Shown: one piece after another, positions 14,233 through 15,973 of the stretch
How the letters are laid out: every line of letters begins with the position of its first letter
Numbering within the stretch: position 1 is the first letter of the stretch
NCBI GenBank assembly: GCA_030425385.1
Contig: JAUIAH010000015.1
Coordinates: 1-64,000 of the forward strand
From: Verrucomicrobiia bacterium
GTDB lineage: Bacteria > Verrucomicrobiota > Verrucomicrobiia > Verrucomicrobiales > DEV007
Direction: 5' to 3'
DNA: 64,000 bases
Program-made: the position numbers and the translations under genes
Notes under the pieces: generated by a model
Seen by the model: only the letters and a program-made list of their open reading frames with translations
Told to the model about the DNA's origin: nothing
The model's database searches: none

Positions 14233-14970
14233 TCACCGCTCTGAGCTGAGCTTGTCGAGCTCGTTCAAGAGCTCAGATGGCTCGGCGCGCTTGCGGTAGT
14301 TAGGATCGAGAAAGGTGTAGCGAATGACGCCTTCTGAATCGATGATGTAGGTCGCCGTCAGCGGCAGCTTGGTCTTGGCTTCCTCGCCATTCTTCTCAGA
14401 GATCTTGGCAAAGTCCTCATAGAGATCGGTGATGATCCCAAGATCGAAGACGAGCCCGTAAGATTCCGCCACTTCCAAATTGAGGTCTGTTAGTATTGGA
14501 AAAGGCACGTCATTTGCCTCCGCCGTTTTCTCGCTAAACTCGGGCAACTCCGGCGTCAGCGCAATGATCGTGGCACCCTTTGAGGCAAACGCATCTTTCT
14601 TCTCTGCCATGGCACGCAAGGCAAGGTTGCAATACGGTCACCAGCCCCCTCGATACCAGGTCAGCACCACTGGTCCGTCCTCCAGAAACTCTGCTAGGGA
14701 GCGCTCCTTGCCCTCGTGATCTTTGAGCGTGAAGGATGGGGCCTTGTCTCCATTCTTACGTGCCTGGCTAACAAGATCAGAATCGGTGAGTTCTTTCAGA
14801 TGCTGCGTCATCTTCGCCTTGGATTCCGCGGGCATCTTTGACTGGGCCGCACGCTTCATCAGCTGTTCCCTGAGCGAGATCTCCTCGGCGCTCACAAGTG
14901 ATAGACTGCCGAGCAATCCGAGCGAGCAGCTGGTGAGCATTCCCTTCATTCCTAGGCGTGAACGTTTCAT
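14233..14970 (-). CDS. Peroxiredoxin-like (AhpC/TSA) protein, probable selenoprotein with in-frame UGA
   Basis: The frame runs from ATG 14970 to the stop at 14233 with a single in-frame TGA at 14640-14638. Reading through gives 245 residues with position 111 as selenocysteine (Sec, U). The signal-like N-terminus is MKRSRLGMKGMLTSCSLGLL. The AhpC/TSA fold follows: GDKAPSFTLKDHEGK, then VVLTWYRGGW-U-PYCNLALRAM, then IIALTPELPEFS. In the cysteine relatives of this thioredoxin-like family the motif is GGWCPYCN, so UGA sits exactly at the first redox cysteine and the second cysteine is kept. The downstream 128 codons show no other lesion, which argues against simple decay. A stem-loop fitting a bacterial SECIS lies just downstream. 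Expected role: thiol/selenol peroxide or disulfide reduction outside the cytoplasm. A nonsense mutation is the alternative. It follows the aquaporin gene by 53 bases on the same strand. Confidence 0.75.
14602..14621 (-). promoter_or_regulatory. Candidate bacterial SECIS element
   Basis: On the minus strand, beginning 17 bases after the in-frame TGA, TTGC pairs with GCAG (one U-G wobble) and an outer C-G pair closes across one mismatch. The 8-base apical loop GTGCCATG begins with G and starts 23 bases after the UGA. Published bacterial SECIS models require an apical-loop G near the start and a UGA-to-loop distance of roughly this size. The stem is short, so this is tentative. An overlapping palindrome (TGCCATGGCA) could compete. 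Confidence 0.4.
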
Positions 14971-15023: not shown

Positions 15024-15839
15024 TCATCTCGATGACGATGACTGATAGTCCAAGCGAGAACCGAGATAACCACCGATCAGGGCGCCCATGCAGGGAGAGA
15101 TCATGTAGACGGTGAACCACCCCATTCCGTTGGTCGTGAAAGGAATCGCTTTCCAACCAGCAAGGCTAGAGAAAAGGCGAGGCGCGAAGTCTCGCGCAGG
15201 ATTGAATCCTGCCATCGTCAAGGGCGCGAAGACGCAGATCAGAGTCGTCAAGGTGAGTCCGATAGCGATCGGCGTGAGTGGTCCAGGACCGCCAGCATTC
15301 AACTTGGAGACGAATCCAAAGATGGCGAGAGCGAGCAGGGCAGTGCCTAACATCTCAGCGAAGCAGGCACGCAGATGGGAAACGGGCTGTCTTGCGGTCT
15401 CGGTGAGAGCCTCGCCACCGGGGTTGGGAAAGTATTCCCCGAAGATCATGGCGCTGGCTTCGCTGCCGGGCGCCCCTCGCCGAATGCCTTGCTCCGCTTC
15501 AAAAGCCTCGATCGCGCCACCAAAGAGCGCATAGACAGCGCCCGCAGCCAGGAAAGCCCCCGCAAACTGCACCAGCATGTAGCCGGCTGCTCGCTTGGCA
15601 GGAAATCTGGTAAAGAGGGTGAACGCGAGAGTGATGGCAGGATTGAGGTGTGCCCCGCTTAGCGTTCCTGTTAGATAAATGGAGGCTGTCAGTCCGAGTC
15701 CCCAGACAATGGCGACTTGGAAGACGCCAATGGGAATGTCGAGAGCGACAGCCGTGGCGACCGCCCCGCAACCGAAGAATACGAGCAGAAAGGTCCCTAG
15801 CAATTCTCCCTGAATCCAAGCAAGTGTTTCTTTAGACAT
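15024..15839 (-). CDS. Aquaglyceroporin (MIP family; glycerol facilitator type)
   Basis: A membrane channel of 271 residues. ATG 15839 (MSKETLAWIQGELLGTFLLV) is chosen because the upstream in-frame extension to 15908 is not conserved-looking. Both NPA boxes are visible: SGAHLNPAIT in the first half and GFNPARDFAPR in the second. The aspartate after NPAR is typical of glycerol-conducting members (GlpF type) rather than water-only aquaporins. Six hydrophobic helices can be traced. It likely conducts glycerol or other small neutral solutes, possibly hydrogen peroxide, across the inner membrane. The peroxiredoxin-like selenoprotein gene follows by 53 bases on the same strand, so the two may be co-transcribed. 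No glycerol kinase is nearby. Confidence 0.88.
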   Translation of the reverse strand: MSKETLAWIQGELLGTFLLVFFGCGAVATAVALDIPIGVFQVAIVWGLGLTASIYLTGTLSGAHLNPAITLAFTLFTRFPAKRAAGYMLVQFAGAFLAAGAVYALFGGAIEAFEAEQGIRRGAPGSEASAMIFGEYFPNPGGEALTETARQPVSHLRACFAEMLGTALLALAIFGFVSKLNAGGPGPLTPIAIGLTLTTLICVFAPLTMAGFNPARDFAPRLFSSLAGWKAIPFTTNGMGWFTVYMISPCMGALIGGYLGSRLDYQSSSSR

Positions 15840-15973
15840 GTCGTAGGTTGATGATTGAGAACTCAAGAAGACCGGCCCTAGCCTGCGGCATCGCCAGAAA
15901 GCAGGCAAGCAGACGATTCGTCAACTTCATCAGAGTGTCGACAACGGCCCACCATCCGTCGCAGAATGCATCC

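Follow-up and report, generated by a model that had tools for sequence, protein, structure and literature searches.

The stretch of DNA analysed here, called the window in the following, comprises 64,000 nucleotides of a verrucomicrobial genome. Its minus strand carries the gene of a peroxiredoxin-like protein. The frame runs from an ATG at 14970 to a stop at 14235-14233 and is open except for one internal TGA, which stands in the context GGW-TGA-PYCN. It is preceded by 110 codons and followed by 134 sense codons. The features that matter for the discussion are:

14233 to 14970, minus strand: gene of the peroxiredoxin-like protein with a single internal in-frame TGA; 246 codons including the stop; PF00578 match with the TGA taken as a residue
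14638 to 14640, minus strand: UGA codon 111, predicted selenocysteine in the first position of UxxC; aligned with the Cys of homologues and with the first Cys of the ResA CxxC
14629 to 14631, minus strand: Cys114, the UxxC partner; invariant in the 31 aligned rows and equivalent by alignment to the peroxidatic Cys in Bcp/PrxQ
14604 to 14624, minus strand: candidate bSECIS hairpin with CGUGC as its loop (14616-14612) and a stem of seven pairs interrupted by one U.U mismatch; from folding and comparison with the orthologue
14887 to 14970, minus strand: N-terminal segment that resembles a signal peptide on visual inspection of the translation, with K/R at the start, a hydrophobic core and VSA ahead of EE
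14233 to 14235, minus strand: ordinary stop of the gene, also TGA, from the translation

An earlier inspection of the bare letters (the sequence-only reading) had described two stretches of the same frame joined by the TGA at 14640-14638, in the context GGW-stop-PYCN, and this is what the translation displays. If the TGA is translated as a residue, the product matches PF00578 (AhpC/TSA) with an E value of 7.8e-30 and 103.8 bits, the curated cut-off being 26, and PF08534 (Redoxin) with an E value of 1.1e-21; both matches span the TGA. With a PF00578 domain extending across the TGA and no other stop in the frame, the claim that AhpC/TSA features are retained without further lesion holds. The 128 downstream codons that had been counted have to be corrected to 134 sense codons; 128 is the length of a mechanical open reading frame starting from TTG 14619. 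A search of NCBIfam with the enzyme matched nine families, none of them above its cut-off. Relatives were also seen in 118 plasmid records, every one below 60% identity, and 13 of the 20 listed plasmid rows are annotated as 'peroxiredoxin-like family protein'. Judged by its signal-peptide-like N-terminus, the product is probably exported.

An aquaporin-type channel gene (15024-15908, minus strand; its MIP match of 168.8 bits falls slightly short of the NCBIfam cut-off, 171.25) lies 53 bases upstream of the enzyme gene. An operon of a peroxiporin and the enzyme was considered and rejected: the aquaporin gene was not found in any of 127 homologue loci (tblastn, E 1e-5), most of which extend no more than 1.5-5 kb on either side, nor in the 19.5 kb of surroundings in the orthologue genome G024, which are included in that number. 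Six other window genes were likewise not found in any of the 127 loci at the same threshold. The enzyme itself, used as positive control in this search, yielded 131 matches. A link between aquaporin and enzyme is not supported.

The AlphaFold2 model of the product has a mean pLDDT of 92 and a pTM of 0.85; the first 20 residues are below a pLDDT of 60. Searching with this model returned Bcp/PrxQ, AhpE and ResA as the nearest solved folds. These proteins, which are also the nearest in sequence, carry Cys where the window protein has its predicted Sec. Identity is 17-26% in the 50 best of the listed fold matches, which are mostly shorter, about 135-240 residues; a substrate could not be deduced from the fold search. 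In profile alignments to solved structures, residue 111 stands at the Thr of TxxC in Bcp/PrxQ (2ywn, 5epf) and at the first Cys of CxxC in ResA (4nmu). Cys114 stands at the Cys of the Bcp/PrxQ TxxC, which is the peroxidatic one. By alignment, the predicted Sec111 is the thioredoxin-type UxxC site and not the peroxidatic position. The idea that the UGA marks the redox or attacking cysteine was right in part: it does occupy the position of Cys in the homologues, the first Cys of a thioredoxin-type CxxC, but not that of the peroxidatic Cys of true peroxiredoxins. Most likely, the product would act as a thiol/selenol-disulfide oxidoreductase or as a peroxide reductase. A doubt that was raised counts against the oxidoreductase half of this reading.

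Homologues were sought, with stops read through, in 74 genomes of the family, the host genome included. TGA is aligned with codon 111 in nine of the 30 loci retrieved (own locus included) and Cys in the remaining 21; seven of the nine TGA loci have WUPFC and fall into Prx-like groups that are more distant. Among the matches listed, a close TGA orthologue exists in one of the 73 other family genomes, G024. This orthologue (L102/L188) is 68% identical to the window protein, and its TGA stands at the codon equivalent to 111. The synonymous sites of the two genes are near saturation, with a pS of 0.69 before as well as after the TGA. The dN amounts to 0.38 in the 110 codons that precede the TGA and to 0.22 in the 134 codons that follow it; the downstream part is thus the better conserved one. 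A paralogue in G024 (C167, 42%) was rejected as a TGA homologue: it has Cys at the position, and its TGA is the final stop. Another homologue, L118 (G023:C13), occupies two frames, one covering residues 19-160 and the other 152-242, and is either frameshifted or misassembled.

Beyond the family search, Cys occupies the position of codon 111 in 109 of 109 loci, some of which are the identical gene fetched from two collections: 80 of 80 loci come from a collection of genome contigs and 29 of 29 from a search of the class. The former are the best 80 of 573 relatives, and this sample leans to Cys forms, since one of the six search patterns included the Cys. Of the 384 genomes in the class search, 25 had a match at E 1e-30; among the 33 matches at this threshold other than the window's own, no TGA orthologue was found, and the four listed matches for which there is no locus are free of internal stops. 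For the alignment, 35 homologues were taken, of which five were dropped for a stop in the translated stretch, so that 30 were kept together with the window protein. The proposed alignment of Cys homologues has thus turned out as expected for a selenoprotein, with Cys opposite the TGA.

A maximum-likelihood tree of 128 rows, 121 of them different, was computed by a quick search; it leaves out the WUPFC groups and has a midpoint root only. Its two Sec proteins pair with an SH-aLRT of 100. The pair lies inside a set of eight (SH-aLRT 95), together with six Cys rows of which two are identical. Those rows of the host's family that coincide with named records come from MAGs of Verrucomicrobiales or Verrucomicrobiia. 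The Sec label requires one change in this tree. The simplest history would be that Cys changed to Sec once, in an ancestor shared by both members known.

The host genome (8.0 Mb, 74 contigs, 95.5% complete) contains the Sec machinery. Its tRNA-Sec scores 65.1 bits, above the Rfam cut-off, and is reported by ARAGORN as tRNA-SeC with the anticodon tca. The SelB match (283 bits) covers positions 2-579 of 581; SelA is matched with 491 bits and SelD with 361 bits; of 14 control genomes, two, one and two, respectively, are above the cut-off for these proteins. The tRNA-Sec model also gave weaker matches in all 14 controls, five of them above the cut-off, and for this reason it is the anticodon and the protein genes that carry the argument. 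All four genes, selA, selB, selC and selD, are therefore in place; their absence had been named as what would speak against a selenoprotein. The SelD gene has an in-frame TGA of its own, in the context TCGUAAK, which we take to be SelD's catalytic Cys/Sec. Of the 32 non-overlapping mechanical open reading frames of at least 200 codons in the window, 13 end in TGA; there is therefore no wholesale change of the code, and TGA is a normal stop.

The window gene is not the only one of its kind. The host genome yields 25 matches to PF00578, and six of them hold a TGA (the window gene included; one of the six is below the Pfam cut-off). In all six, the TGA is the first residue of UxxC: GGWUPYC, HWUPFC, YWUPFC, SWUAGC, INUGPC and YGUIFC. 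The sequence-only reading had considered a stop at precisely this place unlikely to be due to chance. These six genes, the TGA at the equal codon of the G024 orthologue and the Cys of the 109 other loci bear this out.

The signal that would direct Sec insertion is less clear. In the bSECIS model of PMC13188914, a loop of 3-9 nt with G as its first or second base sits on a stem of 4-16 bp; the distance to the UGA is 16-37 nt, and the MFE is -7.5 or below. The stem of the window hairpin extends from +14 to +34 after the UGA, and its loop, CGUGC, starts at +22 with the G in second place. Loop length (5 nt), stem (seven pairs with a mismatch), G and distance (21 nt) fit the model; the energy does not. 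The hairpin has -6.2 kcal/mol on its own, ranks at p 0.44 among synonymous shuffles, and its closing pair reaches a probability of 0.20 if 45 nt are folded and of 0.10 if 60 nt are folded. The hairpin of the G024 orthologue (L102), with the identical loop, eight unbroken pairs, -10.2 kcal/mol and a closing-pair probability of 0.98, fits the model; its shuffle p is 0.099. From the orthologue's hairpin, a bSECIS in the window gene is a plausible candidate. The stem-loop with a G-starting loop that had been placed about 17-36 bases after the UGA thus exists as a possible fold, but with its stem at +14 to +34 and with the G second. When the published rules were applied by script, as had been suggested, statistical support for the hairpin of the window was lacking, while that of the orthologue proved stable.

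Taken over the whole 48 nt after the TGA, 0.43 of the synonymous shuffles are as stable as the window gene. This energy does not separate Sec from Cys genes, the corresponding fraction ranging from 0.02 to 0.79 in 14 Sec genes and from 0.003 to 0.94 in 13 Cys genes. A second comparison admitted only hairpins whose first or second loop base is G and pooled eight Sec genes, i.e., the window gene, the G024 orthologue, five other AhpC/TSA matches and SelD. Their p values are 0.05 to 0.44, the combined p is 0.005, and 0.003 without the window gene, in a test that is rough (best hairpin per gene, 100 shuffles each, codon usage of seven window reading frames applied to all). Compared with 118 Cys homologues, the eight Sec genes have the stronger hairpins (p 8e-5), a difference that could in part be explained by the higher G+C content of the Sec stretches (0.54-0.69 versus a mean of 0.48 in the Cys homologues).

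The gene almost certainly codes for a Prx-like selenoprotein with UxxC, in which the UGA of codon 111 is read as Sec. What had been called a probable selenoprotein is strengthened by the Sec machinery, the Cys homologues and a TGA kept in an independent genome. Of course, one base change turns TGC or TGT into TGA, Cys is present in the other homologues checked, and the hairpin of the window gene alone is not significant; one might therefore think of a pseudogene with a nonsense change, or of a miscalled Cys codon. An error or a decaying gene, however, would hardly recur at the equal codon of an independent genome when synonymous divergence is near saturation, nor would it leave the stretch after the TGA more conserved than the stretch before and the frame without another stop, in a genome that has the Sec machinery and in which five AhpC/TSA matches besides this one hold a TGA at UxxC. 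Because of the conserved TGA in G024 and the pattern of pS and dN, we regard this explanation as very unlikely.

The continuing frame as such would also be compatible with readthrough of the UGA as another amino acid, Trp or Cys, be it by a near-cognate tRNA or by a changed code. Against this stand the long window frames ending in TGA, the window gene itself among the genes so terminated, the tRNA-Sec with its anticodon tca, and the internal TGAs of seven other host genes, which are found at redox positions of known Sec families. There is hardly any room left for this alternative. Sec insertion is generally inefficient, and a restart frame of 128 amino acids exists mechanically; the UGA might thus mainly stop translation in a regulated truncation, the product being a fragment of 110 residues or a restart at TTG 14619. 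Yet both sides of the TGA are conserved, and in the AlphaFold2 model the split would fall inside the thioredoxin fold, between the strand 101-105 and the helix 112-123, so that neither half would be likely to fold alone. We consider truncation as the main fate to be extremely improbable.

If codon 111 is read as selenocysteine, SelA and SelD would make selenocysteine on tRNA-Sec, and SelB with this tRNA would decode the UGA, possibly assisted by the mRNA hairpin just 3' of it. The product would be an AhpC/TSA protein of thioredoxin fold, probably an exported one, in which Sec111 and Cys114 replace the Cys-Cys pair of the relatives. Sec111 would attack a disulfide or a peroxide, and Cys114 would resolve the intermediate. 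Gene callers that always take TGA as a stop would split such a gene or label it a pseudogene, when its correct reading is a complete redox enzyme.

The active-site motif of classical peroxiredoxins is PxxxTxxC. It is absent from the window protein, which has RGGWUPYC instead. Possibly, the protein and cd02970 belong to one broad family, PRX_like2. The selenoprotein listed for cd02970 in the table of PMC13188914 has UxxS, whereas the window protein has UxxC. Sec peroxiredoxin resembles the window protein in its AhpC/TSA domain and its Sec, but it is listed in the same review with TxxU (PMC13188914). The Sec there is the last residue of the motif and takes the peroxidatic place; here, U111 stands at the Thr and Cys114 at the peroxidatic Cys. 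Three residues before U111 there is Gly108, not Thr.

Prx-like UxxC selenoproteins, classed as thiol:disulfide oxidoreductases, are already known, and the window gene adds a new member, of a GGWUPYCN subgroup. Reports of them include 22 sequences from the Sargasso Sea (PMC1088965) and 225 sequences of Prx-like 1 selenoproteins from GOS (PMC2398784); a 2026 review presents Prx-like UxxC/UxxU (PF00578) and, separately, the UxxS family cd02970 (PMC13188914). As described there, these proteins have in common with the window protein the AhpC/TSA domain, the Sec as first residue of UxxC, the Cys homologues and the bacterial Sec machinery. Compared by description and not letter by letter, the window protein differs by its GGWUPYCN subgroup, by an N-terminal helical extension and by its origin from Verrucomicrobiota.

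The number of predicted selenoproteins in the host genome is at least eight, from the few families searched. Apart from the window gene, seven further loci (L165, L171, L175, L184, L187, L098 and L189) are involved: five AhpC/TSA proteins with UxxC, SelD, and a SelW-like protein in which CxxU reads CAQU. CMD/AhpD is a common Sec family; a search of the host genome gave no match to it. In PMC5029168, an organism is described as selenoprotein-rich if it has at least six selenoprotein genes. Verrucomicrobi* is not mentioned in the main text of PMC5029168, PMC2398784, PMC13188914 or another review, and among the papers listed in literature searches none was, by its title, a selenoprotein survey of this phylum. 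The seven other predicted selenoproteins point to a little-noticed selenium-using lineage in Verrucomicrobiota. The chances appear to be even that the host's family is an overlooked selenoprotein-rich lineage in which Sec has replaced Cys at the thioredoxin-type site in several AhpC/TSA branches, including an exported UxxC enzyme that pairs Sec with the ancestral peroxidatic Cys; the word "overlooked" goes back to limited looks at the literature, i.e., at titles and main texts.

A second Prx-like group, with WUPFC and a TGA, is found in several genomes of the family (L120-L124, L126, L127 and L165). L120, L121, L123, L126, L127 and L165 share a near-palindrome at around +20 to +35 from the TGA that might be a SECIS. 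The same stretch codes for a conserved LQGLQ, however, and does not clearly exceed synonymous shuffles.

With strict filters and at E 1e-9, a tRNA-Sec match is present in 36 of the 74 family genomes. G024, the genome of the orthologue, has both a tRNA-Sec and selA. At the same threshold and with the same filters, no tRNA-Sec match was obtained in G051 and G052, two genomes of one genus with TGA-holding Prx-like genes. The selA gene is present in all 12 family genomes tested, G051 and G052 among them. In a single genome, two tRNA-Sec matches lie about 700 bases apart (G002:C73:119883-120679).
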